Below the pieces are notes generated by a model. The model did not search any database. It was not told the origin of the DNA and saw only the letters and a program-made list of their open reading frames with translations. A program made the translations under genes and the position numbers. A stretch of DNA of 64,000 nt from an uncultured Alphaproteobacteria bacterium (lineage in GTDB: Bacteria; Pseudomonadota; Alphaproteobacteria; Micropepsales; Micropepsaceae). Location: positions 1 to 64,000 of the forward strand of contig CAILUV010000043.1 in the NCBI GenBank assembly GCA_903837555.1. The letters run 5' to 3'. Below, piece by piece: positions 10,827-30,264 of the stretch. Position 1 is the stretch's first letter, and each line of letters starts with the position of its first letter.

Positions 10827-10840
10827 CATCGGGGAATCGC

Positions 10841-13155: not shown

Positions 13156-14187
13156 TTACATCCCCGAGCCCTGAATATTTTTCCAACCCGCTTCGACTGC
13201 TGCAACGGCGTTCTCAGGCATAGGGACATAATCCAGGCCAATCGCGAGCTGGCCCCCCTTTTCCATGCCCCATTTAAAGAACTTGAGCGCCTCAGCTGTC
13301 GCTTTCTTGTCTGGGGGATTTTTATAGACCAAGACGAAGACCGTAGCAGTGATAGGCCATGACTCGGCGCCCGGCTGATTCAAGAAGAGGATATGGAAAT
13401 CGTTCTTCGCTGCGTTGGCCCAATCCGCATTCGCGGACGCAGAGCGCATAGATTGAATTGTAGGCTCGACGGGCCGGCCAGCCCTATTGATCAACTTCAC
13501 ATGGCTAAGACGATTCTGCTTCGCGAACGCGTACTCCACGTAGCCGATTGATCCAACGAATTGCGACACATTTCCCGCTACGCCTTCATTTCCCTTGGCG
13601 CCAACGCCGGCGGGCCACTCAATCGCAGTATCCGCGCCCATGTCCGTTTTCCATTGTGGGCTAACAAGACTCAGGTAGGTGGCGAAATTGAAAGTCGTTC
13701 CCGAGCCGTCCGAGCGATGCACCACTGTTATGGCACGGTCGGGTAACGACAGAGTGGGGTTAAGCTTTTTAAGAGCAGGATCGTTCCAGCGGGCAATCTT
13801 GCCCATGAAGATGTTTGCCAGCGTCGTTCCGTCCAGCACCATCTGGCCCGGCTGGATGCCCGGGACATTGATCACGGGCACGATGGAGCCAATGACAATC
13901 GGGAATTGGGTCAAACCTGCCGCATTTAGCTCTTTGGTTGTCAACGGTTTGTCGGTGGCGCCGAAAGTAACTGTCTTCGCTTTTATCTGAGCAATGCCGC
14001 CGCCAGAGCCAATCGACTGATAATTGATTTGATTGCCAGTAGCGTCTTTGTACGCACCCGCCCACTTAGAAATGAGCGGAAACACAAAGGTCGAGCCAGC
14101 ACCGGTGAGGTTGGCTGCCGCCGCCGAGTTCGCGATCAACGCGATACCGGCAATCATTCCAATTGCAGCGCGGCTATACATCTTCAT
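13156..14187 (-). CDS. pstS: Phosphate ABC transporter substrate-binding protein PstS
   Basis: A 343-residue periplasmic phosphate-binding protein. A signal peptide ends SAAAA, then LTGAGSTFVFPLISKWAGAYK, IGSGGGIAQIKAKTVTFGATDKPL and VHRSDGSGTTFNFATYLS, which carry the phosphate-contacting loops (GSTF, SGGG, RSDGSGT). It captures orthophosphate for PstCAB. No pstC, pstA, pstB or phoU occurs in the window, so this is an orphan copy. ATG 14187 has GGGAAG nine bases upstream; an in-frame ATG at 14196 is possible. A three-half-site Pho box stands upstream at 14253-14281, pointing to PhoB control. Confidence 0.94.
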   Translation of the reverse strand: MKMYSRAAIGMIAGIALIANSAAAANLTGAGSTFVFPLISKWAGAYKDATGNQINYQSIGSGGGIAQIKAKTVTFGATDKPLTTKELNAAGLTQFPIVIGSIVPVINVPGIQPGQMVLDGTTLANIFMGKIARWNDPALKKLNPTLSLPDRAITVVHRSDGSGTTFNFATYLSLVSPQWKTDMGADTAIEWPAGVGAKGNEGVAGNVSQFVGSIGYVEYAFAKQNRLSHVKLINRAGRPVEPTIQSMRSASANADWANAAKNDFHILFLNQPGAESWPITATVFVLVYKNPPDKKATAEALKFFKWGMEKGGQLAIGLDYVPMPENAVAAVEAGWKNIQGSGM

Positions 14188-14252
14188 GTTTTTCATCTTC
14201 CCATAGCGTATATATGACTAGCGGCGGCATGGCAGAGGAACGCGCCAGCTTT

Positions 14253-14281
14253 GTGAACTATATATGACAGTGGTGTGACTA
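14253..14281 (-). promoter_or_regulatory. Pho box upstream of pstS
   Basis: Read on the minus strand, three 7-base half-sites follow at exact 11-base steps: TAGTCAC (14275-14281), CTGTCAT (14264-14270) and AGTTCAC (14253-14259). The middle one matches the PhoB consensus CTGTCAT exactly. The 4-base spacers are ACCA and ATAT. The box lies 66 bases before the pstS start. No good -10 hexamer stands at the canonical 10-base distance; another TAGTCAT lies at 14214-14220. The divergent gspO gene begins about 180 bases away. Confidence 0.85.
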
Positions 14282-14463
14282 CTACTAACCCACTATATTA
14301 AAAGGGGTTTTCTATTGGTCTGTCGTGGTGGGCCTCCAACAAGTTTTGCACAGTGACTCCGCAATTAACAGAATCCGGATCTCATACCCCGCCTTGTGAA
14401 AATAGTTGCACTCCGGTCGGTCGGATCACAGGTATACCCGCTGGACGGATCGTTGGCTGAACC

Positions 14464-15135
14464 ATGCCCGACGTGATTTTCATAGTGCTATCCGTACTGA
14501 TAAGCATTCCCGTGGGGATGATCATATCCAGCGCATCACTGAAAATGCCGAAGCCGGACATTGTTCGGCCCGAGAGCTCGCGGCGAAAGCTGGTTTTGGT
14601 TGTGGCCTGTATGGCTTTGGCGCTATGGGCAGGATCGGCATGGCCTGGTCCAAACGCCTTCCTGGGCAGCCTGCTGGGATGGCAGCTGCTGATTCTGGCC
14701 TTGCTGGATTTCGAGCATTTCTGGCTGCCGCGAACTTTGACCATCACCTTGCTTGTAAGCGGTCTGATAGCGATAGCCGCCCAATCCATGCAGAGCTTTT
14801 ACGAGCATGCGCTGGGCGCTGCGATAGGCTTCGCTCTGCTGGCGGCGCTTGCGTTTGCGTATCGCAAATTGCGCGGACAAGACGGTCTTGGCGGGGGAGA
14901 TGCATGGCTTCTGGCGGGGGGGGGCGCATGGACCGGCTGGCAGGGCCTCCCAACCATTCTTGTGCTTGGTGCGGGCGCCGGGCTCGTCTTCGTCGCCCTG
15001 ATGTCGGTGCGTGGCAAGCCGGTCGGACGCGCGCAACCCATCCCCTTTGGGGTGGGTTTGGCGATCGGAATTTGGCTCACCTGGCTCTACGGGCCACTCG
15101 ATGGCACGCAGATTTTGCGCCAAGCGACGGGTTAA
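14464..15135 (+). CDS. gspO: Type II secretion prepilin peptidase GspO, lacking the methyltransferase domain
   Basis: A 223-residue polytopic membrane aspartic protease. The catalytic aspartates are seen as LALLDFEHFWLP (Asp82) and LGGGDAWLLAGGG (Asp146, the GxGD motif). It removes leader peptides from the pseudopilins GspG-K. Classical GspO/PilD proteins carry an N-terminal cytoplasmic methyltransferase domain with a CxxC pair; none is present. An in-frame TGA at 14458-14460 excludes an upstream extension. It faces the gsp operon and its stop overlaps the gspN stop by four bases. Confidence 0.87.
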   Translation: MPDVIFIVLSVLISIPVGMIISSASLKMPKPDIVRPESSRRKLVLVVACMALALWAGSAWPGPNAFLGSLLGWQLLILALLDFEHFWLPRTLTITLLVSGLIAIAAQSMQSFYEHALGAAIGFALLAALAFAYRKLRGQDGLGGGDAWLLAGGGAWTGWQGLPTILVLGAGAGLVFVALMSVRGKPVGRAQPIPFGVGLAIGIWLTWLYGPLDGTQILRQATG

Positions 15136-15863
15136 AGGGCGAGATTTCCCCGATCGAAACGCGCATAGCCATCTGCCTCCGGCGCAAAGCCGGCCGCGGC
15201 GGCCATGGCATCGCCAGCTTCTCCCAAACCCAGGATGCGATTTTCCATTCGATAGGCGCCGTCAGCGCCAATGCGGATGGTGCTGCGGATCGCGATGCTG
15301 CCGGACCGGCCCACCAATCTGGCAATCACGTCGTTACCGGCACAGCCGAGCGCTCCGCGCAATTCCAGGTCGGACGAAAGCGGGATACTGCCCCGCGCCA
15401 GCCGCACATGCTTGACCACAACCGATCCCTGCGCTGCGCGGCAGGTACCGTCACGGAATGCAACGTCGATGTCGGATAGCAGCATTTCACCTTCCAACGG
15501 CAGCGAGGGGGAAAGCGCCTGGACGGGAACCCGCAAGCTATCGGCGCGGATCTCTCGTCTGTCTCGGCCCAGCAGGGCTGTGCCGGCACCTTGCAGTTTG
15601 CCCGCCGCAGAGAAGCGAAAGCGCATTTGACCTGACAGAAGGGCGGGAATATCCAGCGCCACTTTTGCATCGCCCAGCGAAAGGTGGCCGAGATAACCAG
15701 CCTGCAAGACGCCGCCCCAGATCGTCCCCTCAACATCTGCGGCGGAAAGCCAGCGGTCCGCCTGCGTCCAGGATAGCGCCAGCCGCAAGGGCGCGGTCGC
15801 CGCCAGAACCGCAACCAGGAACATTGCCAATACGGGCCATTTCCACTGCATATCAGCGCCCAT
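15132..15863 (-). CDS. gspN: Type II secretion system protein GspN
   Basis: About 243 residues: one N-terminal membrane helix (WPVLAMFLVAVLAATAPLRLAL) and a periplasmic beta-rich domain with the GspN-type pattern VEGTIWGGVLQAGYLGHLSLGDAKVALD and later QGSVVVKHVRLA. GspN is an accessory inner-membrane component of unclear role. The start is ambiguous: ATG 15863 overlaps gspM by 11 bases, while ATG 15851 lies one base after the gspM stop. It is the last gene of the gspC-N operon and converges on gspO. Confidence 0.85.
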   Translation of the reverse strand: MGADMQWKWPVLAMFLVAVLAATAPLRLALSWTQADRWLSAADVEGTIWGGVLQAGYLGHLSLGDAKVALDIPALLSGQMRFRFSAAGKLQGAGTALLGRDRREIRADSLRVPVQALSPSLPLEGEMLLSDIDVAFRDGTCRAAQGSVVVKHVRLARGSIPLSSDLELRGALGCAGNDVIARLVGRSGSIAIRSTIRIGADGAYRMENRILGLGEAGDAMAAAAGFAPEADGYARFDRGNLAL

Positions 15864-16323
15864 CGCTAAAGGTCGCGTCAAGGTTGAGCGTGCCCTCACC
15901 CTGTTTCACCACAATCAGGTGGCGGAGCGAAATGCCATACTCGGTTTGCAGTTGGGCAATCCAGGGAAATAGCAGCGTCGATGGGACCGCGTTGGCGGCA
16001 ACACGAACCCCGCCTTGCGGATCGGGTTCGATGCGTCCCGGCGTGATACCGGCGGCGCCCAAGCTATCGCGCACAATCTCCGCCAAGGGCTTCTTGGCGG
16101 CTTCAACCTTGCGCGCCGGTCCCAATGTGCGTATCTGCGCCACCAGCGACAGAACCGTCTGCTTCTCTTTTAAAGCTATTGCATGCCGGTATGCCGACAC
16201 CCGATGGAGATACACAGCCGGTCGCCAAACCCCGTACCAGCAAATGGCGGCCACGATCAGGACTGCGCCCAGCCCCACCATGATGCGCTCGCGCTGCGAC
16301 AGGCTGTTCCACCAGTTGATCAC
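15853..16323 (-). CDS. gspM: Type II secretion system protein GspM
   Basis: A 156-residue bitopic inner-membrane protein. It has a short cytoplasmic N-terminus (WWNSLSQRERIMVGLG), one transmembrane helix (AVLIVAAICWYGVW) and a periplasmic ferredoxin-like domain. GspM partners GspL in the assembly platform. The start overlaps the gspL stop by four bases. The family is poorly conserved, so the call rests on topology, length and position between gspL and gspN. Confidence 0.87.
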   Translation of the reverse strand: MINWWNSLSQRERIMVGLGAVLIVAAICWYGVWRPAVYLHRVSAYRHAIALKEKQTVLSLVAQIRTLGPARKVEAAKKPLAEIVRDSLGAAGITPGRIEPDPQGGVRVAANAVPSTLLFPWIAQLQTEYGISLRHLIVVKQGEGTLNLDATFSDGR

Positions 16324-17429
16324 GGCCTGCCTCCCAGCCTTACGTCGCTGACCATTACTCCGGAATCCTCTCGCGAGGACACTTTGCGCATTTCGATGCC
16401 ATTTCCGGCCAGCGCGACACCGAGCTTGTCGATATCCTCCGCCACAGGGTGGCGGAGCGAGACTTGCAACATACCATCGGACATCACCGTCAAACTCTCG
16501 AGTTGAATGCCGCCTGCTGCCTCCAGCGTTGAAAATAACAGTGCGATCCGGCCTGCCGGACCACCGGACGTCAGGTCCAGTTGCCGAAACCGGTCCTGCA
16601 ATGCCTGCACCGGGTTCTGAACAGCCGCGCCGGCCGGCAGCACGGAGGCCGCCGCGACCGCGCTTTCCGCCTTCAACCGCTGCGCGGATATATGGAGGTG
16701 GACCGCCTGACCGATTTGTATCAAGACCGGGCTTATCAATAGCAATCCGGCCATTACAGCCAGGCGCACCCGATTGCCGGTCAAGAATCCCCCGCGTCGG
16801 CGCACGCCGAATTCCCCCTGCAGCAAGTTGACAGGGGGGGCAAGAGCCCCTTGCGTTATCATGCGCTCGAGGGCGGGCTGACTGGTTGACGTTGCCGTGA
16901 CGTCCTTCAGAAGCATGGGCAGGAGGTCGCTGTCACAACAGAATGCCAGGCGCGGACCGCGTACAATCGCAACCCCATCTGGCATCTGTGCCGCCAAGGT
17001 TTGTGCATCGGCGGGTTCTGGCAGGGTTAGATGATCGGGAATGAGGAGGTCGGGCTCCAGGCCATGCTGCCGCGCGCCATCGAGCCAGGCTTGCATCTGT
17101 TCTCGCGAAACAGAAACGACAAGCCGGAACCCGTCTTGCTCCAAAGGCCCCAAGGCCAGATGAAGCGCTTGCGTCCCCAGAGCCAGCTCGTCTTCCATCT
17201 GCATGCGCGCCGCGGCAAGCGCCTGCTTTTCGCTGCGCGTCGGCAGATGCAACCAGCGGGCTGTCACCTCAATGCCCGGCACAACCATCACCGTCCACAG
17301 GTCCGAACTCTCGGCATCGCCCGGATGCAGCTTGCGCCAACCGGGCATCGTTCCTGGCTCCCCGATGGTCGTGCAAACCAGCGCCTTTTGGGGGTCCGAT
17401 GGATAGATCACAATGCGCGCAGTTTTCAT
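16320..17429 (-). CDS. gspL: Type II secretion system protein GspL
   Basis: A 369-residue protein with a large cytoplasmic actin-like domain (MKTARIVIYPSDP... VARWLHLP-type strands), one transmembrane helix near residue 240 (LAVMAGLLLISPVLIQIG) and a periplasmic ferredoxin-like domain. GspL recruits the GspE ATPase to the inner membrane. ATG 17429 overlaps the gspK stop as ATGA, which favours it over the ATG at 17444. Confidence 0.88.
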   Translation of the reverse strand: MKTARIVIYPSDPQKALVCTTIGEPGTMPGWRKLHPGDAESSDLWTVMVVPGIEVTARWLHLPTRSEKQALAAARMQMEDELALGTQALHLALGPLEQDGFRLVVSVSREQMQAWLDGARQHGLEPDLLIPDHLTLPEPADAQTLAAQMPDGVAIVRGPRLAFCCDSDLLPMLLKDVTATSTSQPALERMITQGALAPPVNLLQGEFGVRRRGGFLTGNRVRLAVMAGLLLISPVLIQIGQAVHLHISAQRLKAESAVAAASVLPAGAAVQNPVQALQDRFRQLDLTSGGPAGRIALLFSTLEAAGGIQLESLTVMSDGMLQVSLRHPVAEDIDKLGVALAGNGIEMRKVSSREDSGVMVSDVRLGGRP

Positions 17430-18403
17430 TCTTCGGCCCCCCAACGCCTGGACACGAGCCTTACGTCTCCCTGACCGGCGCTTTCAAACAGGGTGCTGGA
17501 AAGCGCTTCGGCATCGCCATGGCGTACGTCCGTCTCGAGCCGGAAAAAGCGGGTACGCAAGGAAACCTGTTCGCCGGGACCGCCACTTTCGCTAAGCGGA
17601 GCCAGAATGGGCTCTGCCCGGAACGCCGTTTCGCTTGGCCAGCCTCCGGCGGGACGCTGTGCGATCAAGCGGGCGGCATCAGCTGGGGACAGCCGGCCAT
17701 CCGTAAGGGCTGTCAGAAGAACGGCACTTGTCACCGGCAAGGTGTTGACGTTGATCATCGTCATGTCCGTGTTGGGCAGCGCGCAAACATGGGGACGCAG
17801 GCGGCGATAGACGCTGTCGGTGAACCCGTGGATAGCGCGAAGCTCGCTGGCCTCGGCAAGTAGCGTGGCCCCGGTGAGATAGCCGACGGGGGACTCTCTA
17901 TATGCTTCATCTTCCGCCCCGCCCGCCTCACGCAAGGAATCACTGTCGGCCCAGTCCACCAGCGCGGCCGTGAGCGTGGCGGCGTCCTGGGAGGCAAACT
18001 CCAGGGCCATGAGCAACGCCATGAACTGCGCCGCGCCCCGATCCCGGCGGCGCAGCATCTCGCCGGCCCCTTCCACCACGCTGTTGAGATTGAAGCAGGC
18101 GCCGCCATCGGCCAGGCGCATGCCGACCTGTCCGTCCTCGACCGGGAACTGGACAAAGCGCCCTGGCCAGTTTCCCGCAAGGCTGGTGTGGCCGCCCCCA
18201 TTGGAAAGACGGGCGATCCGGCTTCGCGCCAGCGCTTCCGCGCCAAGCGCATACCATTGCGCCTGACCATTCTCGGCCGCATTCATACTGCGGCGAATTC
18301 CAAAACGGATGTCGTCAAGCAGCGCCACCGCCAGCACCGACATTACCGCCACCAGAAGCAGCACCGTGATCAAGGCCGCACCTTTTTCGTCCCAGCGCCT
18401 CAC
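17426..18403 (-). CDS. gspK: Type II secretion minor pseudopilin GspK
   Basis: About 325 residues from a GTG at 18403 that overlaps the gspJ stop as GTGA. The N-terminus RRWDEKGAALITVLLLVAVMSVLA is a prepilin-type segment in which GspK lacks the usual Glu at +5, as is normal for this subunit. The large globular insertion with NLNSVVEG, ALVDWADSD and INVNTLP is diagnostic of GspK, which caps the pseudopilus tip with GspI and GspJ. Longer in-frame starts would run deep into gspJ. Confidence 0.9.
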   Translation of the reverse strand: MRRWDEKGAALITVLLLVAVMSVLAVALLDDIRFGIRRSMNAAENGQAQWYALGAEALARSRIARLSNGGGHTSLAGNWPGRFVQFPVEDGQVGMRLADGGACFNLNSVVEGAGEMLRRRDRGAAQFMALLMALEFASQDAATLTAALVDWADSDSLREAGGAEDEAYRESPVGYLTGATLLAEASELRAIHGFTDSVYRRLRPHVCALPNTDMTMINVNTLPVTSAVLLTALTDGRLSPADAARLIAQRPAGGWPSETAFRAEPILAPLSESGGPGEQVSLRTRFFRLETDVRHGDAEALSSTLFESAGQGDVRLVSRRWGAEE

Positions 18404-18987
18404 GAAGCAGACCCCGTCACGAGAAGCAGCTGCGTTACAGTTCCGTAGTCGGTCAGGTTCAAGTCCAGCCGCACCGCCTGGGGAAGGTCTACATGCGCGC
18501 CCAGCGGGAGCGTATCGATCCATTGCCCATGCCACAGAAATTTCAGCGAGGCGCTGCGGATGCCCGTGAGCAACGGCTGGGAGGGATAGAATGAGCCGCT
18601 ATCCAATCCGACGCGGGTGCGGCGCTCCAGCGTATTCTTTGCCAGACGATATTCGACATACTGCAATGAGCTGCGCGGTTGATTGTCGGGATTGTCCACG
18701 CCACGGCGAACCAATGCCAACAATGGACCGCCATTCGCCTGTTCGTTGCCGAAAAAAGCGCGATTATCGGGCCGCCCGTCGAGGCCGCGGGTCCGGCGTG
18801 TGCTGGCCTGGGCCAGGTCCGCCTTCAGCAGCGCCCGTGCGCCCTGAAATTCCGCCAGGCGGCTGGTATGGGCCCGGACCCTTTCCTGATTGTCCATGCT
18901 GAAGCGCATCACGGCGACGCCGGCGGCGGAAACCAGGCCGAAGATGAACAGTGCCAGCATCATTTCAACGAGGGTAAATCCCTTCAT
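18400..18987 (-). CDS. gspJ: Type II secretion minor pseudopilin GspJ
   Basis: A 195-residue prepilin. The leader cleavage site is MKG/FTLVEMMLALFIFG, with Glu at +5. The C-terminal domain has VEYRLAKNTLERRTRVGLDS and ends SLKFLWHGQWIDTLP, as in GspJ. It forms the pseudopilus tip complex with GspI and GspK. It is coupled by four-base overlaps to gspI upstream and gspK downstream. Confidence 0.92.
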   Translation of the reverse strand: MKGFTLVEMMLALFIFGLVSAAGVAVMRFSMDNQERVRAHTSRLAEFQGARALLKADLAQASTRRTRGLDGRPDNRAFFGNEQANGGPLLALVRRGVDNPDNQPRSSLQYVEYRLAKNTLERRTRVGLDSGSFYPSQPLLTGIRSASLKFLWHGQWIDTLPLGAHVDLPQAVRLDLNLTDYGTVTQLLLVTGSAS

Positions 18988-19349
18988 CGCATCACCCGGA
19001 AGACCACGACTTCACTGGCGGTCCTGTTGCTCTGTGGCGGCGAGACCGTAACCGTGACGCGCAGGATATCGCTGTCGGCAGCCCGCGTGACTCGCCGTGT
19101 CCAGCGCCACGCCTCGCCGCCGGCCATTTCAACGCCGCTTTCTGCGCCAACGGAAGGTGGCATGGCGCTGGCTATGGCTTCGATGGCGCGATTGTCAGCC
19201 ACGATGCTGGCGAACAGCCGCGTGCGCAACGCTGCAGCCGTGCGTGTGTTCTCGCCGGCCAGATTGAGCAACGCCACGGCGCCCAGGCTGAGAATAGCCA
19301 TGGCCACGAGCATTTCCAGAACGGTGAACCCACGTTCAGACAAGGTCAT
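18984..19349 (-). CDS. gspI: Type II secretion minor pseudopilin GspI
   Basis: A 121-residue prepilin with leader MTLSERG/FTVLEMLVAMAILSLGAVALL and Glu at +5. The A-N-R-A-I motif after the N-terminal helix (ADNRAIEA) and the C-terminal strands of the small GspI fold are visible. It starts the tip complex. The gene overlaps gspH by 14 bases and gspJ by four. Confidence 0.92.
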   Translation of the reverse strand: MTLSERGFTVLEMLVAMAILSLGAVALLNLAGENTRTAAALRTRLFASIVADNRAIEAIASAMPPSVGAESGVEMAGGEAWRWTRRVTRAADSDILRVTVTVSPPQSNRTASEVVVFRVMR

Positions 19350-19803
19350 GCATCTGCACCCGGCCCTGGCGGTTGATGATAAGGTCTATCGAACGTCCGC
19401 TGGCGGTCATGCGAATGGTGGCGGGATCGGTGCTGCCGCTGGAATCGAAACGGACGGCCCTGCGCCCGGCACCACCGGTTAGCGCGACGGAAAGCCCTTC
19501 CCCCCAGGGCCGAGGCTTGAACGGCCCGGCGACCAGCGGAACCCAACGGCCACGGTGCTGAACCCGAAAACTGCTGTCATTTGCCGCCAGGATGATCTCG
19601 ACAGGGCGATTGGTCAGCACCGCTTCCTGCTGCGCGTGCTGAATCCGCGCGGCCAGATGCTCGGCTTCATCCGCAAGTCTTGCGCCGCCCGATGGCAGGT
19701 TGAGCAGCACCATGCTGCTGGCGAGGCCCACCAACAGCAAGACCACCATCATCTCGATGAGCGTGAAACCCTGCTCCCTAGCTCCAGTTGCCGATATCGG
19801 CAT
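19336..19803 (-). CDS. gspH: Type II secretion minor pseudopilin GspH
   Basis: A 155-residue prepilin with leader MPISATGAREQG/FTLIEMMVVLLLVGLASSMVLL, followed by LADEAEHLAARIQHAQQEAVLTNRPVEI, the typical GspH linker. It joins the tip complex to the GspG shaft. It overlaps gspG by 26 bases, the largest overlap in the operon. Confidence 0.92.
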   Translation of the reverse strand: MPISATGAREQGFTLIEMMVVLLLVGLASSMVLLNLPSGGARLADEAEHLAARIQHAQQEAVLTNRPVEIILAANDSSFRVQHRGRWVPLVAGPFKPRPWGEGLSVALTGGAGRRAVRFDSSGSTDPATIRMTASGRSIDLIINRQGRVQMHDLV

Positions 19804-20215
19804 TGTCGCCCTCCCCGCCCTTCACCCCATCCGCGCCGAACGAATATACATCGAACCGGCTATGCTGACCGGGAAAGGCATATTGATAGGGATTGCCCCA
19901 CGGATCCTGGGGCAGACGGCGCACATAGCCACCATCGCGATAGCGATCCGCGCGCGCCATGCCGGCAGGCGCCTGCACCAGCGCCGTCAATCCTTCCTCG
20001 GTCGTCGGAAAGCGCAGCGTTTCCAGGCGAAACGTCTCCACGGCCTGTTCCAGCACGGCAATGTCCGCACGCGCTTTTTCGCGCATGGCGCGGTCCTGGC
20101 TGGGAAGAACATTGATCATTACGACCGTCGCCAAGAGGCCGATGATGACGATCACCACCATGACTTCTACCAGGGTAAAGCCGGCGTCGCGGCGAAAACG
20201 GTCAGGAACGGGCAT
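19778..20215 (-). CDS. gspG: Type II secretion major pseudopilin GspG
   Basis: A 145-residue major pseudopilin with leader DAG/FTLVEVMVVIVIIGLLATVV. It also has RFPTTEEGLTALV, the DPWGNPYQY motif and the Ca-binding tail FDVYSFGADGVKGGEGDNADIGNW. All are hallmarks of GspG, which polymerises into the piston-like pseudopilus. It follows gspF by 12 bases, the only real gap in the operon, consistent with a strong own ribosome-binding site. Confidence 0.95.
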   Translation of the reverse strand: MPVPDRFRRDAGFTLVEVMVVIVIIGLLATVVMINVLPSQDRAMREKARADIAVLEQAVETFRLETLRFPTTEEGLTALVQAPAGMARADRYRDGGYVRRLPQDPWGNPYQYAFPGQHSRFDVYSFGADGVKGGEGDNADIGNWS

Positions 20216-20227
20216 GGGTATCTCTCT

Positions 20228-21442
20228 TCAGCTGTAGGCCAGTGTGTTGATTTGCAGGATCGGAAGCAGGATCGCCAATACGATCAGCGTGACGACAGCG
20301 CCCATCACCACGATGATGATCGGCTCAAGCAGGCTAAGCGCCAGCGCGACAAAGGTCTGAAACTCCCGCTCCAGATATTCGGCGGCACGGCCCAGCATAT
20401 CGTCCATGCGTCCGCTGCTCTCGCCGCTGGCGGTCATGTAGATAAGGATGGGCGGAAAGATATCCGCTCGGCGCATGGCGCCGGACAGGCTGCCACCCTC
20501 GCGGATGGTCGTCGCCATCACGAGCGTTGCCTGGCGCAAGGCACGATTGGACACCGTCGGTACCGTGAGCAGCAGACCTTCCAGCACGGGGACGCCGCTG
20601 GCAATCATGGTCGACAGCGTGCGTGCCAGACGGGCAGCGTTGACGTTGCGGATCAGCTTGCCGGCGACCGGCAGGCGCAGAAGCGCCGCATCGAAGCGCA
20701 GTCGCATGTCCGGCCGGCGCAGCGCCTGCGCCAGTCCGATGATGCCGGCGGCGAAAAGCAGCAGGAAAAGCCATCCCCAGTCGCGCGCCACATCCGAGAC
20801 AAAGATTATCACGCGTGTCAGGAGCGGAAGCCGCTGCCCCATACTGTCGAACTGGTCCACCACTTTCGGGACCACGAAGACCACCAGCGCGGCGATAACC
20901 GTCAAAGCCGTGAGCGTGAGGGCTGCGGGATAGACCAGGGCGATCTTGAGGCGGCTGCGCGCCTGCTCGTCGCGTTCCAGCAGGTCCGCCAGCCTTTCCA
21001 GGATGGTGGGCAATGCGCCAGAACTCTCTCCCGCCGCGACCATGGCACGATAAAGCGGGGGAAACGCGGCGTCCTGCCGCGCCATGGCGCCGGACAGGCG
21101 GAAGCCTTCCAGCACACTTTCATGAGTCGCGGTCAGGACCCTTCGCAGATGCGGATTGTCGGTCTGCAAGGCGATGGTTCGCAGCGCCTCTTCCAGGGGC
21201 GCGGTGGCAACCAGGGTCGCAAGCTGGCGCGTTATCAAAGACAGATGTCGGACACTGAGCTTGCGGGGCTTCAAGCGGTTCCTGATGCGACCGCTCATGC
21301 CTTCGACAGCAGGAACGATGCTAACAGGAACCAGCCGCCGACCCTGCAGCTCTTCGCGCACCAGGCGCTCGGTCGCAGCCGATATTACGCCCTGGCAAGT
21401 CCTGCCCCCGCTATCGAGCGCGGTATACTCAAAGGTCGACAT
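20228..21442 (-). CDS. gspF: Type II secretion inner-membrane platform protein GspF
   Basis: A 404-residue polytopic protein with two repeated GspF domains: the first around RQLATLVATAPLEEALRTIA, the second around LARTLSTMIASGVPVLEGL. Transmembrane helices lie near residues 170 and 225 and at the C-terminus (LEPIIIVVMGAVVTLIVLAILLP). It is the rotary or anchoring core of the assembly platform. The ATG overlaps the end of gspE by 14 bases. Confidence 0.94.
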   Translation of the reverse strand: MSTFEYTALDSGGRTCQGVISAATERLVREELQGRRLVPVSIVPAVEGMSGRIRNRLKPRKLSVRHLSLITRQLATLVATAPLEEALRTIALQTDNPHLRRVLTATHESVLEGFRLSGAMARQDAAFPPLYRAMVAAGESSGALPTILERLADLLERDEQARSRLKIALVYPAALTLTALTVIAALVVFVVPKVVDQFDSMGQRLPLLTRVIIFVSDVARDWGWLFLLLFAAGIIGLAQALRRPDMRLRFDAALLRLPVAGKLIRNVNAARLARTLSTMIASGVPVLEGLLLTVPTVSNRALRQATLVMATTIREGGSLSGAMRRADIFPPILIYMTASGESSGRMDDMLGRAAEYLEREFQTFVALALSLLEPIIIVVMGAVVTLIVLAILLPILQINTLAYS

Positions 21443-22907: not shown

Positions 22908-24994
22908 TGCAGCTTCGCCGGAGCGGAAGCCGGTGCGGCCGTTGCCGGAGCAGGCAGCGGCGGCACCGCAGGAACACGCGGTGGCTCCGCCCGCAGATAC
23001 TTGCGGACCATCTCCTCGAGCTGACTCTGCCGGTCCGGAGTTCCAACGGTCTGCTGACCGACGATGTACTCGTACTTTGGCGCCGTGGCGCGGCGGGCAT
23101 CGGCTGCACTTCTGACGATGGTGGGCCGGATAAAGATCATCAGGTTGGTGCGATCGCGTTGCCGGCTGGTACTGCGGAAAAGCGCGCCAAGCACCGGAAC
23201 CTCGCCCAGAAGCGGTGTTTTCTCGACGGAAAGGCGTTCATTCTGATCCAGCAGCCCGCCCAAAACGATGATCTCGCCGTCATCGACATTCACGGTGGTC
23301 TCGACCTGCCGACGATTGAGCACCAGCTCCGCCGAAGCCGCGCTGACCGGCCCCGCCACACTGGACACTTCCTGGCGCAGGAACAATGTGACCGTGCCTC
23401 CGGCATTGATCTGCGGCTTCACGTCGAGTTGTATGCCCACGTCCTGCCGCTGGATGGTGCGGAAGGGATTGACGTTTGCCGTGCCGAGCACTTCGCCGGT
23501 GGTTATCGGGACATTCTGGCCCACCAAGATGGTCGCTTCCTGATTGTCGAGCGTCATGATCGACGGCGTCGACAGCAGGTTTGAATTCGTATCGCTTTTG
23601 ACGGCATTGATGACGAAGGTGAAGAGCGTATCGCCATTGATCTGGCCAATACCCCCGGTGATGAGGCCGTTAGCGCCGAGAAGTGAGGCGGCGGCGGCGT
23701 CCCGCAGACCCTGGAGCGTTGATCCTTCCGGAAGATAGTCCGGTCCAACCCCCGCACCCAGAATGGCTGGCAGATTGGGCCGCGCATTGGAATAGTTCGT
23801 AGCGGTGAAGGGGGCGCCAGACGCGTTTCGGCCCGACAGGGCGAACTGCACACCCAGCCGCTTGGCTGTCGTGTCTGAGACTTCCACGACAATGGCTTCA
23901 ACAAGAACCTGCTCGCGCCGCACATCCAGCTTGCGGATGACCTCCGCCAGCATGTGCTGCGTGTCTGGCGATGCCGCGATCACTATGGCATTGGCGCCGG
24001 GGTAGCGCGTGATGCTAGCCCGCTGTTCACCACTGGAGACAGGAGCGGGCGCGGGCTCCGCCGGAGCCGGCTCACTGCCCGGGCTGATCCCAACCTTTGT
24101 GGAAGAAACTCTTGTCGTGACAGGTGCAGGCGTGGACGGGGCACTTTGACCCACCAGCTGCCGCAGCACAGGCACCAGTTGCGCTGCGTCTGCGTGCTGA
24201 AGCTGAACCACCCTGACATCGCCCGCGCCTTCGGCCCGGCGGTCGAGGTCTGCGATGATCGGCAGCAGCGGACGCACCGCTTCGGCTTCTCCACGCAGGA
24301 TAATGCTGTTGCTGCTTTCCACCACGATGATGGAGACAAGTCCATTGCGCGCCTGAATATCGGCGCCGGGACCTTTCAGAAGAGAGTTGAGGACCTCGGC
24401 GATCTCGCGCGCGGAACTGGCCCGCAAGGTCACTGTCTCCGTAACCCCGCCAGCCCGATCGATCTCCGTCAAAAGATTGCGAATTCTACGCAGATTGTCG
24501 CTGTAATCGGCAATGACAAGAAGATTGCCCCGGCTGCTGGGAAGCACGACACCTTGCCGGCCGATCAGGGGTTTGAGCGCCTCTGCCGCCGACCGGGCAT
24601 CCAGGGTATGAAGCCGGAAAACCTGCGTGGAGAATCCGTCGCCGACATTTCCCCCTAGGCTGCCGGCGGACTGGGCGGCGCCCTCCTCCGGTGCAACCCG
24701 GTAAGCCCCGGAGGCAGTGGGTATGGCCACCAGCCCATTGGCGCGCAAAGCTGACAGCAGGACATCCAGCAATTCTGTCCGCTGCAAGGGCTGCTGGCTT
24801 GTGACGGTTACTTTCCCCTGTACCTTGGGATCGATGATGAAGGTCGTACCGGTGGCACGCGCCACATCCTGAATGAAGACGCGGATATCGGCGTCCTGAA
24901 GATTCAGTACTTGCCCCTGCTGCGCCGGCGCATTCTGCGCCATCACGGGCATCGCCTGAAACAGGACCAGAACGAAAGCAATTACACGCTTCAC
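22904..24994 (-). CDS. gspD: Type II secretion outer-membrane secretin GspD
   Basis: A 696-residue secretin. The signal peptide ends MPVMAQ, then N0 (LNLQDADIRVFIQDVARATG), three N1-N3 KH-like domains, a Pro/Ala/Ser-rich linker near residues 295-330, and the secretin barrel with VPITTGE and EKTPLLGEVPVLGALFRS. It forms the 15-mer outer-membrane channel. No pilotin gene (gspS) is visible, so its assembly route is unknown. The gene overlaps gspC by four bases. Confidence 0.95.
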   Translation of the reverse strand: MKRVIAFVLVLFQAMPVMAQNAPAQQGQVLNLQDADIRVFIQDVARATGTTFIIDPKVQGKVTVTSQQPLQRTELLDVLLSALRANGLVAIPTASGAYRVAPEEGAAQSAGSLGGNVGDGFSTQVFRLHTLDARSAAEALKPLIGRQGVVLPSSRGNLLVIADYSDNLRRIRNLLTEIDRAGGVTETVTLRASSAREIAEVLNSLLKGPGADIQARNGLVSIIVVESSNSIILRGEAEAVRPLLPIIADLDRRAEGAGDVRVVQLQHADAAQLVPVLRQLVGQSAPSTPAPVTTRVSSTKVGISPGSEPAPAEPAPAPVSSGEQRASITRYPGANAIVIAASPDTQHMLAEVIRKLDVRREQVLVEAIVVEVSDTTAKRLGVQFALSGRNASGAPFTATNYSNARPNLPAILGAGVGPDYLPEGSTLQGLRDAAAASLLGANGLITGGIGQINGDTLFTFVINAVKSDTNSNLLSTPSIMTLDNQEATILVGQNVPITTGEVLGTANVNPFRTIQRQDVGIQLDVKPQINAGGTVTLFLRQEVSSVAGPVSAASAELVLNRRQVETTVNVDDGEIIVLGGLLDQNERLSVEKTPLLGEVPVLGALFRSTSRQRDRTNLMIFIRPTIVRSAADARRATAPKYEYIVGQQTVGTPDRQSQLEEMVRKYLRAEPPRVPAVPPLPAPATAAPASAPAKLQ

Positions 24995-25815
24995 TGTGCT
25001 ACCCGGAGATTCTTGGTTATGATCTGTCCGCCACGTTCGACGGTAAGTTCGACCTGATCCGAACCGCTGAACTCGGACTCGATTTCCTCGAAGCGGTTAC
25101 GGCTCAGGGCGGATCCATTGATGGTGCGGATCACATCTCCCGCCTGCAGTCCGGCTTGCTGCAGAGCCAGACCGGAATCTCGCGGCGTCACGGTGTAGCC
25201 AAGCACTTGTCCGTCTTGCAGGCGCGGCTGGAAGGCCGTTTGTGACAGAAATGCCTTGGGGGTTATCGTGCCGCCGCCAACAGCCGTGGTGGGGGCTGCG
25301 GGCGCGATTGGTGCACTGGGCGCACCGGAGGAGGACGGGGGCTGAAACGCGATGCGAATGTGCACGCCGGCACGCGACACAATGGCATGATCAGCGCCCA
25401 CGGCGGTCAGCACCGTGCCGGGCGCGATCACCTGTCCAACCGTATACGCCTCTTGCCGGCCGTCGGGCCCAGCCAGTATCGCCGAGCCACGCCCAGCGGG
25501 GCCCGTGCGTATGCCAAACAGTGTATAAATACCGGTCGCAGCGAATGCGCTCGCATCTCCAGTGCTGTTTAGGCCGCGAAAAAAGGGATCAACCCGGGAA
25601 AGCACCGCAAAGTCCGCCTTGGCCTGCGGCTGGGAAGGTGGCGGCATGCCCATCGCGCCCGCCGGCGTGATTAGCGCCCAAATCAGGCGGACGCCTTGTA
25701 TGGCAAGCGCCCCGATCAAGGCGAATTCAGCCATTGTCGCCCAAGGCAGCGGCCAGCGAAATATGTCCAAACGGAAAGCCAACGCTTCGTCCTTACGGGT
25801 ATAATGCGAAGACAC
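24991..25815 (-). CDS. gspC: Type II secretion system protein GspC
   Basis: About 274 residues. A single N-terminal transmembrane helix (FALIGALAIQGVRLIWALIT) precedes the HR domain (VLSRVDPFFRG...YTLFGIRTG) and a C-terminal PDZ domain (GLQAGDVIRTINGSALSR). It links the inner-membrane platform to the secretin. The start is uncertain: GTG 25815 has GAGG ten bases upstream and sits just after the Pho box, while ATG 25734 would begin right at the membrane helix. It is the first gene of the gspC-N operon. Confidence 0.88.
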   Translation of the reverse strand: MSSHYTRKDEALAFRLDIFRWPLPWATMAEFALIGALAIQGVRLIWALITPAGAMGMPPPSQPQAKADFAVLSRVDPFFRGLNSTGDASAFAATGIYTLFGIRTGPAGRGSAILAGPDGRQEAYTVGQVIAPGTVLTAVGADHAIVSRAGVHIRIAFQPPSSSGAPSAPIAPAAPTTAVGGGTITPKAFLSQTAFQPRLQDGQVLGYTVTPRDSGLALQQAGLQAGDVIRTINGSALSRNRFEEIESEFSGSDQVELTVERGGQIITKNLRVAQ

Positions 25816-25840
25816 TTTCCCCTGACCTCGGCAACATTTT

Positions 25841-25869
25841 GTGACGATATCGTTACAGTTGTGTGACAG
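25841..25869 (-). promoter_or_regulatory. Pho box and promoter of the gspC-N operon
   Basis: On the minus strand three half-sites follow at exact 11-base steps: CTGTCAC (25863-25869), CTGTAAC (25852-25858) and TCGTCAC (25841-25847), with spacers ACAA and GATA. The first two form a near-consensus PhoB box. Ten bases after the second half-site stands CAAAAT (25836-25841), a plausible -10 at the canonical distance. The box is 26 bases from the GTG proposed for gspC. This is direct evidence for phosphate control of the whole secretion operon. Confidence 0.87.
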
Positions 25870-25877
25870 ACGAACGC

Positions 25878-25909
25878 AAAAGGGCGGCGATGCCGGATCG
25901 CCGCCCTTT
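25878..25909 (-). terminator. Rho-independent terminator after the TonB receptor gene
   Basis: A perfect 13-base stem, AAAGGGCGGCGAT (25879-25891) with ATCGCCGCCCTTT (25897-25909), encloses a five-base loop. On the minus strand it continues as a T-run of four. It lies 21 bases beyond the receptor stop and directly before the gsp Pho box, so the lipoprotein/receptor unit and the secretion operon are separate transcripts. Confidence 0.9.
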
Positions 25910-25930
25910 GCTGAAGTTCCGAACGAACGC

Positions 25931-28525
25931 TTAGAGAGTCTTGGACAAGGAGAGGGAGAAAGTGGTCCCGGTCGTGTACCGGTTGTTAAAGACGATGTTC
26001 GAACCCTGCTGCTGGAACTCCTTGAAATCCTCGTCCAGCAGATTGCGCGCACCAAAGCCGAGGTTGAACTCCTCATCCCAGACCCGGAAGCCCTTGCGGT
26101 AGTTAAAGTCCAGCGTGATGCCGGGGCTCTGAACCAGGTCCGGCTGGCCAGGCCTGCCTCTTGCGGTAATGCGATCGCTGACCCAGGTCAGAAGGAAGGT
26201 CGCCTGGGAGTTTGCAACATCATCCTCGAACCCAAACTGGATGTTGACCAGATGCTCGGACTGCCCCTGCAGCTTGCTGCCGTTCTTGACATACTCGAGG
26301 GCAGGACGGGACGTCCCGGAGGCGCTTAGCGGAAAAACCACATCCCCGGCCCCAACCTGAACTTCCGATTTCGAGTAGGTATAGTTCGCCTGCACCAGCC
26401 AATTCTTGTTGACCAGGTGCTCGTGCGTCCAGCCGAAATCGAAGTATTTTTTGGCTTCAAACTCGGCACCCATAATATTGGCCTTGGGTGCATTGATGTA
26501 GGTCTGCTGGATCGTGGCGCCAGCCTCGTTCACGACTGACTCCACCGGCTTGTCGATATCCTTGTAGAAGACACCAGCGGTGAAGAACTCGCCACCCGGA
26601 AGGTAACGCTCGACGCGGGCGTCCAGGTTCAAGAGCTTGCTGTCCACCAGAAAAGGATTGCCGACAAAGAGGCGATCGCTGTCAGGATCGAGATACTGCT
26701 GCGGAGCCAGTTCACGGAACTGCGGACGGGCGATAGTCTGGGAGGCGCCAACGCGGAACTGCCAGTCATCCGCGAAGTTCCAAGTCACCGTTCCCGTCGG
26801 CAGGACATAGGTATTGCGCAACGGCGCAGGGATCAAGGGCGGCGGGCCGCGAAACAGGTCCAGCGTGGTGACCGACTGGGTCGCTGTCTCGACGCGCACG
26901 CCGACCGCAGTGCGGACAAAGGGCAGTATCTCCGCATCGACCTGGAAATAGCCGCCCTGCACCTTGAGACGACCGCGATAGGCCGCCGCGCCTTCAGCGC
27001 CCGTGGTTTCGCGCACCACCAACCGGCTGGGGTCCATGTTGAAATCGGACAGCAGATAGTCCACCCGCTGAGCCTGCACGTCGAGGGGCAGTGAGCTGTT
27101 CAGAGCCAGGAAGCGAAACTCGCGTGACTCCGCGCCGCGCTTATTCTCGGAATAGGCAAGACCGGCACTGAAAACCGCTTCGCGGGCGCTGGACAGCGGC
27201 AGCGTATAAGCGACGTCAAGACCGGCGCTGGCGATGTTGTCGCTGACATGGCTGAAGCGGGTATAATTCTGCTCCTGCGAGGCATTGTGTCGATATGCGC
27301 CATTCACAAGGCGATAACGAATGCCCTTTTCATAGGGCGCGTTACGCGTCGTATCGGCATAGGCCGCGCGCCAGTCGATGTCGAACTGCTGCCAGACATG
27401 CGAGCCGGTGAGCTGGGTATTGAGCAATTCGCGTTCGAAATATTCGCTATAGTCATCGCGAACATCGGCGCCTGCGAGATCGTCATAGCCCACCCGGGAA
27501 CGCGCTTCCTTCGACACGCTGCGAACAAAGAAATTCGTCCATTGCACCTTGTTTTCGTCCCACTCCAGCGCAACGGAACCCAACCCGTTCAGCACGACAT
27601 CGTTCTGGGTGGACTGAAAATTATAGTCCGTGCTCACTCTCAGGTTGTTGGCGACCAGCAGGCCTTCCTGCTGGATACCCATGCGACTGCGCCAGTCACT
27701 GTCGAAGCTGCCCACCAGCACGACGCCGAGCTTGGCCCCGCCGTTCAGATCAAAGCTGCGGCCGCCGCTGAACTGCAAGCCGAAGTCAGGCGATGTTTGC
27801 TGACGCTCCAGGAGGTTCAGCGGCGCATTCACGAAGCTGCGGCCTATCGCCTGCAACTGGGTCGGCGTGAAATTGGAGTCGGTCACCCGCTTGCCCGCAT
27901 CCCATGCTGCCCGCAATTCCGTAGGTACATCTCGGGTGCCGTCATCGAAACCAAGCCTGTCGGTGCCCGACCCGAAATAGGTGAGGCCATTCTGTAAGGT
28001 GGAACGAGTGTTGCCGCCCAAGCTCATGCCAAGGGTCAGGAACGCCTCTTCGGGCACGCCCACTGTGGTCAAGTTGATAACGCCACCGCCAAACTCTCCC
28101 GGCATGCTGGCGGAAAAGGTTTTCTGCACCACCGTATTGGCCAGAATATTGGCAGGAAACAGGTCCAGCGGCACGACGCGCTGCAAGGGCTCAGGACTTG
28201 GCAGGGGGGAGCCATTCAGAAGGGCCGAGGAATAGCGCTCGCCCAGGCCACGGACATAGACGAAACGGCTGCCTATCAGGCTGACGCCGGAAAGCCGCGT
28301 CAGCGCGGCGGCCGCAGTGCTGTCACCGGCCCGTTCCAGGTCTACCCGGGTTAGAATATTTGCTACTTCAGACGTCTCCCGCATGACATCAGGAATATGG
28401 ACACCGCGGACAACGACCTCTTCGACAGCCATAGCCGGGGTGCCCTGCGCCAGGGCCAGGTGGGGTGCGACAAGCCCGGTGCTGGCTAGGAGCAGCGCTG
28501 GCAGGGCCTTGCGAAACTTCTTCAT
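25931..28525 (-). CDS. TonB-dependent receptor of the T2SS/lipoprotein locus
   Basis: An 864-residue outer-membrane receptor. The signal peptide ends LALAQ; the plug has VRGVHIPDVMRETSEVANILTR, SRFVYVRGLGERYSSALLNG and MPGEFGGGVINLTT; the barrel ends in TGTTFSLSLSKTL. Its position, directly after a surface lipoprotein gene and before a T2SS operon, matches the Caulobacter elpS neighbourhood, where genes respond to phosphate starvation. The substrate is unknown. It is probably transcribed with the lipoprotein gene across a 62-base gap holding a stable hairpin, and ends at a strong terminator. Confidence 0.92.
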   Translation of the reverse strand: MKKFRKALPALLLASTGLVAPHLALAQGTPAMAVEEVVVRGVHIPDVMRETSEVANILTRVDLERAGDSTAAAALTRLSGVSLIGSRFVYVRGLGERYSSALLNGSPLPSPEPLQRVVPLDLFPANILANTVVQKTFSASMPGEFGGGVINLTTVGVPEEAFLTLGMSLGGNTRSTLQNGLTYFGSGTDRLGFDDGTRDVPTELRAAWDAGKRVTDSNFTPTQLQAIGRSFVNAPLNLLERQQTSPDFGLQFSGGRSFDLNGGAKLGVVLVGSFDSDWRSRMGIQQEGLLVANNLRVSTDYNFQSTQNDVVLNGLGSVALEWDENKVQWTNFFVRSVSKEARSRVGYDDLAGADVRDDYSEYFERELLNTQLTGSHVWQQFDIDWRAAYADTTRNAPYEKGIRYRLVNGAYRHNASQEQNYTRFSHVSDNIASAGLDVAYTLPLSSAREAVFSAGLAYSENKRGAESREFRFLALNSSLPLDVQAQRVDYLLSDFNMDPSRLVVRETTGAEGAAAYRGRLKVQGGYFQVDAEILPFVRTAVGVRVETATQSVTTLDLFRGPPPLIPAPLRNTYVLPTGTVTWNFADDWQFRVGASQTIARPQFRELAPQQYLDPDSDRLFVGNPFLVDSKLLNLDARVERYLPGGEFFTAGVFYKDIDKPVESVVNEAGATIQQTYINAPKANIMGAEFEAKKYFDFGWTHEHLVNKNWLVQANYTYSKSEVQVGAGDVVFPLSASGTSRPALEYVKNGSKLQGQSEHLVNIQFGFEDDVANSQATFLLTWVSDRITARGRPGQPDLVQSPGITLDFNYRKGFRVWDEEFNLGFGARNLLDEDFKEFQQQGSNIVFNNRYTTGTTFSLSLSKTL

Positions 28526-28558
28526 GGTTCGGAAACCTTATCGAATGACAATAATGGC

Positions 28559-28580
28559 GGGGCTGGCACACGCCAGCCCC
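28559..28580 (-). other. Stable hairpin between the lipoprotein and receptor genes
   Basis: GGGGCTGGC (28559-28567) and GCCAGCCCC (28572-28580) form a perfect nine-base stem with a four-base loop. No T-run follows on either strand, so it is more likely an mRNA-stability or processing hairpin, or an attenuator, than a full terminator. It starts eight bases downstream of the lipoprotein stop. Confidence 0.6.
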
Positions 28581-28587
28581 GTACTAA

Positions 28588-30045
28588 TCAGCAGCTGGTT
28601 CCGCCGGGCAGGCCGCAGGTCCAGCCCGCATACCAGTTGTCCGCGTTATCCCGCACCGCGCCGATATAGGTCGTGCGGGTGAAGGCGGCACTGACCGTGG
28701 TGGCGTCAAATGCCGGGACCGCCGCTTCGTTGGCGCCGTTGATGAAGGATCCCGTCAGGGTCGAGACATGCGCGGAGCTGTTGTTGGTGCCCGCATTGAA
28801 GAACACCGCGGCCGCTTCCGCATTCACATCGGTATCGTTGCGGAACGGCGTGCCGCAAGCCAGCCGAACCGAATTGAAGGTTGCAGAAGTGGATGTTGCA
28901 TCAATATCCAAGCAAGACACCGCCGTTCCGGCCGCAACCACGATGCCGTTCGACAGGTTGTACCCGGTGCTGGAGTTTAACGTGAGCGGATCGCCCGCGC
29001 CGGCAACCGCGCGGCTGATAAAGGTGAAATTGCTGAGCTTGGGGGCCGAACGCGGCGCCGTGCCGGCGCTCGACGCCTCAACGATGCGGTCGCCGCCGCC
29101 AGCGCGCTGGATGGCAATCACAAACTGCATCGTGCCATTGAAGCCGACATCCGTATCCAGGTTGTCGTCATCGATGCCGGTAAGGACCAGATGCTTGGCA
29201 TTGACGGTGCCGCCGAACCATTCGATGCCGTCATCCGAACTGTTGTGGACCTGGACAAAGTCCACCACTGTCCCGGTGCCGACACCGGCCAGGGTGATGC
29301 CGTTCAGCTCGTTGTTGGGCAGAATCTGGAAGCCCGAATGCATAACGCGGACATAGCGCAGGATGCCGCTATTGTCCGCGGCGCTGTCGCCGCCATAGAA
29401 GGCGCTGGTGCCTTCGACCTGGGCTTCGCAGGTCGCCGAGCCGGGCGTGGCGCCGGGCGCACTGCAGTTGCTGGTGGGCGCGCGGCCGAGGATTACCAGG
29501 CCGCCCCACTGACCTATGGAATCAATCCCGGTGGTGCCGTCAATGCTCTGACGGCTGGTGAAGATGATGGGGAGTGTCGCAGTGCCATCCGCCAGGATCC
29601 GCGAGCCACGATTTACCACGATATAGTCCAGGCCAGCCGAGCCGAACAGGCGGACGCCGGGCTCGATGCTCAACACTCCCGACAGACGACCAGCGACCGG
29701 GGTGGTGGAGTTACCTCCGAGATCGTCACCGACATCGACGCGGCCGCTGATGGCATAAACGGTGCCGGCGCGCCGTGGCACCACCAGGGTACCAGTGATC
29801 TTTGCCGGCAGCTGGCAGGCGCGAAGCGTGTTACTGGCCACAATGCCAATGTTTGTGAAGCCCGCGGGGCAATCTGCAGCGGCAGTACCAGTAGCAGTCC
29901 CCGTGGCGGCGCTACCTGTGCCTGTATAGGGCTCTGCGGAGGTCTCGCCTGGCGAAACAGGGGCTTTCTCAGGAAAGCATGCGCCCAGCGCCACCACACT
30001 GACAGCGACAAAGCACAGGCTTTTTAGGTTCTTCAGGCCGATCAT
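28588..30045 (-). CDS. Surface lipoprotein, ElpS-like by context; predicted beta-helix
   Basis: A 485-residue lipoprotein. The lipobox ALGAC precedes a Ser/Thr/Gly/Ala-rich linker (ETSAEPYTGTGSAATG). The rest is low in charge and rich in Gly, Asn, Thr and Val with repeated strand-turn patterns (GVRLFGSAGLDYIVVNRGS, GQWGGLVILGRAP, SSDDGIEWFGGTVNAKHLVL), which suggests a right-handed parallel beta-helix. ATG 30045 has GGGAG upstream. In Caulobacter crescentus the phosphate-induced lipoprotein ElpS is encoded beside its T2SS and released by it; the layout here is alike, though sequence homology was not tested. A Pho-box-like array and a -10 stand about 90-130 bases upstream. Confidence 0.75.
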   Translation of the reverse strand: MIGLKNLKSLCFVAVSVVALGACFPEKAPVSPGETSAEPYTGTGSAATGTATGTAAADCPAGFTNIGIVASNTLRACQLPAKITGTLVVPRRAGTVYAISGRVDVGDDLGGNSTTPVAGRLSGVLSIEPGVRLFGSAGLDYIVVNRGSRILADGTATLPIIFTSRQSIDGTTGIDSIGQWGGLVILGRAPTSNCSAPGATPGSATCEAQVEGTSAFYGGDSAADNSGILRYVRVMHSGFQILPNNELNGITLAGVGTGTVVDFVQVHNSSDDGIEWFGGTVNAKHLVLTGIDDDNLDTDVGFNGTMQFVIAIQRAGGGDRIVEASSAGTAPRSAPKLSNFTFISRAVAGAGDPLTLNSSTGYNLSNGIVVAAGTAVSCLDIDATSTSATFNSVRLACGTPFRNDTDVNAEAAAVFFNAGTNNSSAHVSTLTGSFINGANEAAVPAFDATTVSAAFTRTTYIGAVRDNADNWYAGWTCGLPGGTSC

Positions 30046-30132: not shown

Positions 30133-30177
30133 TTCATAAGGGGGTACCATGACAGAACTGCAAACGTCGTATGACAA
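30133..30177 (-). promoter_or_regulatory. Probable Pho box and -10 of the lipoprotein/receptor unit
   Basis: On the minus strand TTGTCAT (30171-30177), a weak middle site CGTTTGC (30160-30166) and CTGTCAT (30149-30155) lie at 11-base steps. Ten bases after the last half-site stands TATGAA (30133-30138), the spacing expected between a PhoB box and its -10. The outer half-sites match consensus at six and seven of seven bases. The start codon is about 90 bases further on. Confidence 0.72.
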
Positions 30178-30246
30178 ATTTGTGTAGGCCCAGCGCTGTG
30201 CGCGTTTTCATTCATCTTCGTCAGGTCAGGTAGCGCACGACACATC

Positions 30247-30264
30247 ATGACAGCTGCGTGAAAT
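30247..30264 (-). promoter_or_regulatory. Second Pho-box-like site in the lipoprotein/regulator intergenic region
   Basis: On the minus strand ATTTCAC (30258-30264), spacer GCAG and CTGTCAT (30247-30253) form a two-half-site box. No -10 stands at the canonical distance in either direction. It could assist the lipoprotein promoter from a distance or touch the divergent regulator gene that begins at 30317. Confidence 0.55.

Follow-up and report, generated by a model that had tools for sequence, protein, structure and literature searches.

What joins a protein secretion system, a surface lipoprotein, a TonB-dependent receptor and a phosphate-binding protein in a single locus? These elements stand side by side in a 64-kb stretch of DNA from an uncultured alphaproteobacterium of the family Micropepsaceae (GenBank assembly GCA_903837555.1, contig CAILUV010000043.1, positions 1 to 64,000; hereafter the window): an elpS-like lipoprotein gene (28588-30045), a receptor gene (25931-28525), a run of type II secretion system (T2SS) genes from gspN to gspC (15132-25815) and pstS (13156-14196), all on the minus strand. 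The elpS–receptor–T2SS locus of the Caulobacter type most probably forms one phosphate-starvation module, a reading to which a probability of about 0.75 can be attached. Neither the overall layout nor its interpretation is without precedent, both having been described in Caulobacter and in several further genera; elpS, the receptor, the T2SS and an inverted gspO have been published for Caulobacter (PMC2996285), and transcriptomics has shown that the T2SS belongs to the Caulobacter crescentus PhoB regulon (PMC11208175), so that the module is not new. Added here are sequence evidence pointing to direct PhoB control at three units, its partial conservation and an embedded pstS, together with a model-based reading of ElpS that would separate surface display from T2SS-dependent release.

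The three units, elpS–receptor, gspC–N and pstS, are each preceded by a putative PhoB-binding site (Pho box) on the minus strand, composed of three half-sites at 11-base steps. These are the distal elpS box (30247-30275; CATTCAT-ATTTCAC-CTGTCAT; 18.2 bits), the pstS box in the intergenic region common with the divergent gspO (14253-14281; TAGTCAC-CTGTCAT-AGTTCAC; 17.8 bits) and the gspC box (25841-25869; CTGTCAC-N4-CTGTAAC-N4-TCGTCAC; 17.4 bits). They rank first, second and third among the ~128,000 positions scored on both strands of the window with a two-half-site PhoB matrix, hand-written from the general consensus; the next independent site reaches 13.5 bits, and first-order Markov sequence would be expected to give 0.3 sites above 16 bits, where three were observed. 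A preliminary description of this DNA, which had pointed to CTGTCAT-like half-sites at 11-base steps before pstS, gspC and the lipoprotein gene and had staked its case on scores better than those of shuffled sequence, is borne out on both counts. A second, proximal half-site array lies ahead of elpS (30149-30188, minus strand), with four 11-base steps and two strong half-sites. The receptor gene carries no strong box of its own. Because the matrix was made by hand, a search without it was added, in which the pattern TGTCAY-N5-TGTCAY, allowing no more than one mismatch, was sought throughout the 2.46-Mb genome; it gave 12 matches, against three for the backwards pattern as a control, and the elpS, gspC and pstS boxes account for three of the 12.

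The regulators expected for such sites are encoded in the same genome. A phoR-phoU-phoB cluster is found on another contig (C95), with matches to TIGR02154 and TIGR02135 above the NCBIfam cut-off; PhoR scores 303 bits against TIGR02966, under the cut-off of 334 bits, but its gene adjoins phoU-phoB. The genome also contains pstCAB and two copies of pstS, the one in the window and a second on contig C11, where it follows a gene for an OprO/P-type porin. A Pho box of 17.8 bits, also among the 12 pattern matches, stands 66 bp ahead of phoU-phoB, downstream of phoR, and a weaker multi-half-site array of 12.2 bits precedes the porin gene, so the matrix recovers Pho promoters where they are expected. 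The other matches with at most one mismatch (contigs C42, C57, C74 and C89) were set aside as background, being at or inside genes without evident phosphate function, as far as examined.

Aligned upstream regions of related genomes indicate that the arrays are partly conserved. In the relative G075 (receptor 90% and lipoprotein 84% identical), the lipoprotein gene, receptor gene, T2SS genes and pstS follow in the same order; in G074 (92–93% identical), the contig stops ~2 kb past gspO, and no pstS was found in that stretch. The three half-sites of the gspC box are in register in all three genomes and those of the pstS box in two (this genome and G075). Ahead of elpS, the distal array is shared with G075 but not with G074, and the 11-base spacing of the proximal array is the same in the three genomes; the register of half-sites holds across genomes although the flanking bases differ. 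Between the receptor gene and gspC lies a hairpin of the intrinsic terminator type (25877-25909, minus strand; -26.4 kcal/mol, z -5.1, followed by TTTT), the arms of which are kept in G074 and G075. This agrees with the receptor gene and gspC belonging to separate transcription units, as in the division into three units proposed earlier. The position and conservation of the putative sites, together with the presence of PhoR, PhoB, PhoU and pstCAB in the genome, support Pho control of all three units. The idea of a phosphate-starvation module stands in this respect; the inclusion of pstS as a general member does not, as pstS adjoins the T2SS end only here and in one near relative. Two more distant family members (G006 and G004) keep the elpS–receptor–T2SS order, and pstS was not found in the stretch examined.

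Loci of other species carry the same association further. A scan of public genomes yielded 80 loci with ElpS homologues, mostly from Caulobacteraceae, sphingomonads and Xanthomonas relatives, among them many close relatives, so that counts are not independent. The receptor gene follows elpS in nearly all 80, and gspC–G are nearby in most. When upstream Pho scores above the 99% level of random windows were called high, 19 of 77 loci had a high score ahead of elpS and 13 of 59 ahead of gspC, against four and three, respectively, for the reversed matrix; there was none among 78 for the receptor gene, which is downstream of elpS, and none for gspD, gspE or gspF. In Pseudoxanthomonas suwonensis elpS adjoins an OprO/P porin gene and pstSCAB-phoU, in Sphingomonas metalli pst-phoU and in a Sphingosinicella a phoB-like gene, which ties elpS to phosphate in three lineages outside the present one. 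The secretion locus known from phosphate-starved Caulobacter thus appears to be widely conserved as a unit, with Pho control that can be read in the DNA of Caulobacter- and sphingomonad-type loci and possibly in that of Xanthomonas-type loci. Within the order to which the present genome belongs, ElpS was found in only six of 96 genomes. The receptor tree places the present clade near the receptors of Phenylobacterium and Caulobacter, with open or weak branches that do not separate transfer from loss.

The T2SS gene set is complete, comprising gspC–N and a prepilin peptidase gene (Pfam matches for C–L, N and O). Its first gene is gspC (24991-25815; GTG start; T2SSC), behind which come, also on the minus strand, gspD for the secretin (22904-24994; Secretin and GspD N0, with TIGR02517 at 573 bits, above cut-off), gspE for the ATPase (21429-22907; T2SSE), gspF (20228-21442; T2SSF), gspG for the major pseudopilin (19778-20215; T2SSG), gspH (19336-19803; GspH), gspI (18984-19349; T2SSI), gspJ (18400-18987; T2SSJ), gspK (17426-18535; T2SSK), gspL (16320-17444; T2SSL), gspM (15853-16323; assigned by position and by a homologue at the equivalent position in G074, G075 and G006) and gspN (15132-15899; T2SSN). 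The inverted gspO (14464-15135, plus strand; 223 residues; Peptidase_A24) overlaps the end of gspN, with which it is convergent, and is divergent from pstS (346 residues; NCBIfam equivalogs NF008171 and TIGR00975 above cut-off). Upstream of the T2SS unit, only 62 bases separate elpS from the receptor gene, the product of which has 864 residues with Plug and barrel domains (PF07715, PF00593) and no further domain listed.

Caulobacter crescentus has the same genes in the same order and orientation, including the convergence of gspO with gspN: elpS (cc0170), the TonB receptor gene cc0171, gspC–N (cc0172-cc0184) and inverted gspO (PMC2996285). The elpS–T2SS arrangement also occurs in Sphingomonas alaskensis, Hyphomonas and Xanthomonas, and Caulobacter elpS is expressed under phosphate starvation (PMC2996285). 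The proposed likeness of the lipoprotein to Caulobacter ElpS was confirmed against a C. vibrioides T5M6 homologue rather than CC_0170 itself: residues 56-485 are 65% identical, and the homologue likewise stands ahead of receptor and gsp genes; the receptor is 57% identical to that of the C. vibrioides strain. The window differs from cc0170-cc0184 in having pstS beyond gspO with a Pho box of its own, a recognisable box at each of three units, and an S1/P1 nuclease–receptor pair adjoining the module. A Pho-controlled T2SS and the Pst transporter are common to the C. crescentus PhoB regulon (PMC11208175) and to this organism, for which Pho control is deduced from binding-site sequence. Xanthomonas-type loci, from a different class of Proteobacteria, contain a homologous lipoprotein (57–59%), receptor (49–52%) and gsp genes in the same order, many with moderate box-like sites ahead of gspC; no Pho control of them was found described in the literature searched. 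The Xanthomonas T2SS with lipoprotein and receptor is presumably the Xcs system. Pseudomonas aeruginosa possesses a Pho-regulated T2SS, Hxc, that is used under phosphate limitation.

Several observations weigh against a phosphate-starvation module. In Caulobacter, poor medium raises gspE and gspL by no more than 1.7-fold, the amount of mGFP-GspL protein is similar in both media and cc0171 has been called constitutive (PMC2996285). Several Caulobacter loci are without a strong box where scanned, though with start positions that were extrapolated. In the present genome, the matrix scan found no Pho box ahead of the pstCAB genes or of the S1/P1 nuclease–receptor pair (8091-11848). Allowing two mismatches, the pattern occurs 15 times in the window against 9.1 expected, which barely exceeds chance, and only the strong sites therefore count as evidence.

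By inference, a phosphate-starvation module would operate in this organism as follows. At low phosphate, PhoR would activate PhoB, which would bind the arrays before elpS–receptor, gspC–N and pstS. ElpS would be synthesized as a lipoprotein, would reach the surface by a T2SS-independent route, as in Caulobacter, and would be held there by its predicted lipid anchor and disordered linker. By analogy with inhibitor experiments in Caulobacter, the T2SS would export a protease, and cleavage of the linker by this enzyme would set the β-helix domain free; probably the T2SS would also export enzymes that release phosphate, for example the S1/P1 nuclease encoded next to the module. The receptor beside ElpS may import a phosphate-containing product or an ElpS-bound ligand, and the extra PstS would gather periplasmic phosphate for PstCAB, the established role of PstS.

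What ElpS itself contributes can be approached through its sequence and predicted structure. The 485-residue protein was characterized by alignment, an AlphaFold2 model and fold comparison, and has no match in Pfam or NCBIfam; neither ElpS nor the receptor sequence matched the PDB. Its lipobox, LGAC, occupies residues 20-23, with cysteine 23 invariant in an alignment of 43 homologues; the lipid cysteine is followed by (V/I)ASPGE, or a close variant, with proline 32 and glycine 33 invariant, and then by a Pro-, Thr- and Gly-rich linker ahead of the domain. Lipoprotein-like matches to cysteine plus SPG in the fetched loci were ElpS proteins. Seven domain cysteines (59, 77, 206, 378, 397, 477 and 485) are invariant and an eighth (194) nearly so. 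The model has a mean predicted local distance difference test (pLDDT) score of 88, below 50 at residues 8-52 and mostly above 90 from residue 60, and forms a right-handed parallel β-helix that is nearly all strand with three short helices. Fold comparison gave Z scores of ~19-23 across 250-316 residues to many β-helix proteins, with no single structure standing out; Foldseek, in which no hit reached E 0.001, gave generic β-helix matches only and excluded no fold family. The acidic residues E246, D271, D272, E275, D292, D293, D294, D297, D299 and E323 are invariant and, judged from DSSP register, seem to share a turn and short strand of consecutive coils.

This structure lends some substance to a possible, though not favoured, alternative in which ElpS would act together with the receptor as a two-part importer: the surface β-helix would bind or cut a phosphate-containing polymer and pass it to the receptor, with the T2SS a secondary partner. 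SusD-like lipoproteins hand ligand to SusC-type receptors in this manner. The pairing of elpS with the receptor gene is near-invariable, also where a T2SS is missing; the modelled fold is a parallel β-helix and resembles that of right-handed β-helix enzymes active on carbohydrates and that of tailspike enzymes, and the conserved acidic residues appear to extend across consecutive coils. However, fold similarity by itself shows no function. The resemblance to SusCD-like pairs does not extend to the fold: SusD is mainly helical, and the ElpS model is almost all strand. Refolded ElpS also lacked phosphatase activity, and no change in cellular phosphate was detected in Caulobacter (PMC2996285). 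A role for ElpS as an alkaline phosphatase was rejected here, as the Caulobacter assays contradict it. A two-part importer is compatible with a phosphate-starvation module and would specify its receptor step. In a more speculative extension, which seems doubtful at present, ElpS–receptor would be a widespread outer-membrane uptake unit for phosphate-containing polymer, with the acidic-ladder β-helix displayed via its (V/I)ASPGE-type signal without the T2SS; when needed, a protease exported by the T2SS, itself controlled by PhoB as well, would cut the linker.

The preliminary description had instead cast the lipoprotein as the likely surface substrate of the T2SS, and an unlikely alternative to the T2SS-independent display favoured here holds that ElpS folds in the periplasm, passes through GspD and is then anchored at the surface. 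Tight linkage of elpS to the gsp genes favours direct export, as does co-occurrence: in a search of 389 genomes of the class, GspD (E <= 1e-60) was found in 12 of 15 genomes with ElpS versus 50 of 374 without (Fisher p 3e-8, relatedness uncorrected). The conserved cysteines would also fit periplasmic folding, and overexpression of ElpS is toxic to Caulobacter cells without a T2SS (PMC2996285). However, ElpS remains on the surface of T2SS-null Caulobacter cells; in Caulobacter the T2SS is needed for the release of ElpS, probably via a secreted protease, as inhibitor experiments suggest (PMC2996285). Further, G078, a genome that is 98% complete, has elpS (L015:8158-9705) and the receptor gene without a GspD match, and G203, G273 and G333 likewise encode ElpS without GspD at this threshold, as expected if surface display is independent of the T2SS. 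ElpS is thus probably not translocated by the T2SS. A role of the SPG motif as a T2SS export signal was also dropped, the motif being kept in the ElpS proteins of these four genomes. The disordered linker of the model would be a natural place for proteolytic release as in Caulobacter, and an old puzzle, the function of ElpS and the reason for which its release, but not its display, requires the T2SS, becomes testable through the linker, the SPGE motif, the acidic β-helix face and the partner receptor. It is very improbable that the half-sites arose incidentally or serve a different regulator of the OmpR type, the genes being together only through inheritance of a T2SS block: the consensus matrix is hand-made, intergenic DNA, being richer in AT, often contains short repeats, and a few strong sites appear with the reversed matrix too, but the elpS, pstS and gspC boxes are the top three of the window, their register persists while flanks change, a box is present at phoUB and the Caulobacter PhoB regulon includes the T2SS (PMC11208175).

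Beyond pstS, the window encodes a second TonB-dependent receptor (8091-10781, plus strand; Plug and barrel), a neighbour and possible functional associate of the module, and an S1/P1-type nuclease (10841-11848, plus strand; 335 residues; PF02265 above cut-off) with a signal-like N-terminus, a candidate secreted phosphate-releasing enzyme. The pair lies 1.3 kb past pstS here; in G074 its counterpart (receptor 84% and nuclease 68% identical) adjoins the module on the opposite side, 3.3 kb ahead of elpS. Linkage on opposite sides in two genomes suggests a functional tie to the module. An extracellular S1/P1 nuclease would suit phosphate scavenging and is a candidate cargo of the T2SS.

Divergent from elpS, a gene at 30317-31345 (plus strand) encodes a 342-residue protein without a Pfam match, the N-terminal part of which resembles a DNA-binding region; the protein is conserved at this position in G074 and G075, with 56-82%, and to a weak degree in G078, and the strong Pho box at 30247-30275 sits in the intergenic region common to both genes. 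A weaker half-site array at 33394-33420, in or near the start of a tetratricopeptide repeat gene (32939-33904, minus strand), has a similar sequence in G006 (33048) and is possibly one more Pho-like promoter. A 12.9-kb stretch of a metagenome-assembled genome named Caenibius sp. (L037) is 99.9% identical to the window, yet the records of its near relatives L038 and L114 bear the name Rhizobium sp., so that not all of these names can be trusted. In the Sphingomonas metalli locus (L072:9014-15004), elpS and the receptor gene lie near pst-phoU between a flavin mononucleotide reductase-like gene, which may be ArsH-like, and a gene resembling those for low-molecular-weight phosphatase or arsenate reductase, and the region is possibly a phosphate/arsenate island. 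The ElpS homologues of L111, L112, L113, L109, L136 and L138 (Maricaulaceae, Hyphomonas and others) have ~920-969 residues and appear to hold two copies of the β-helix domain in one lipoprotein.

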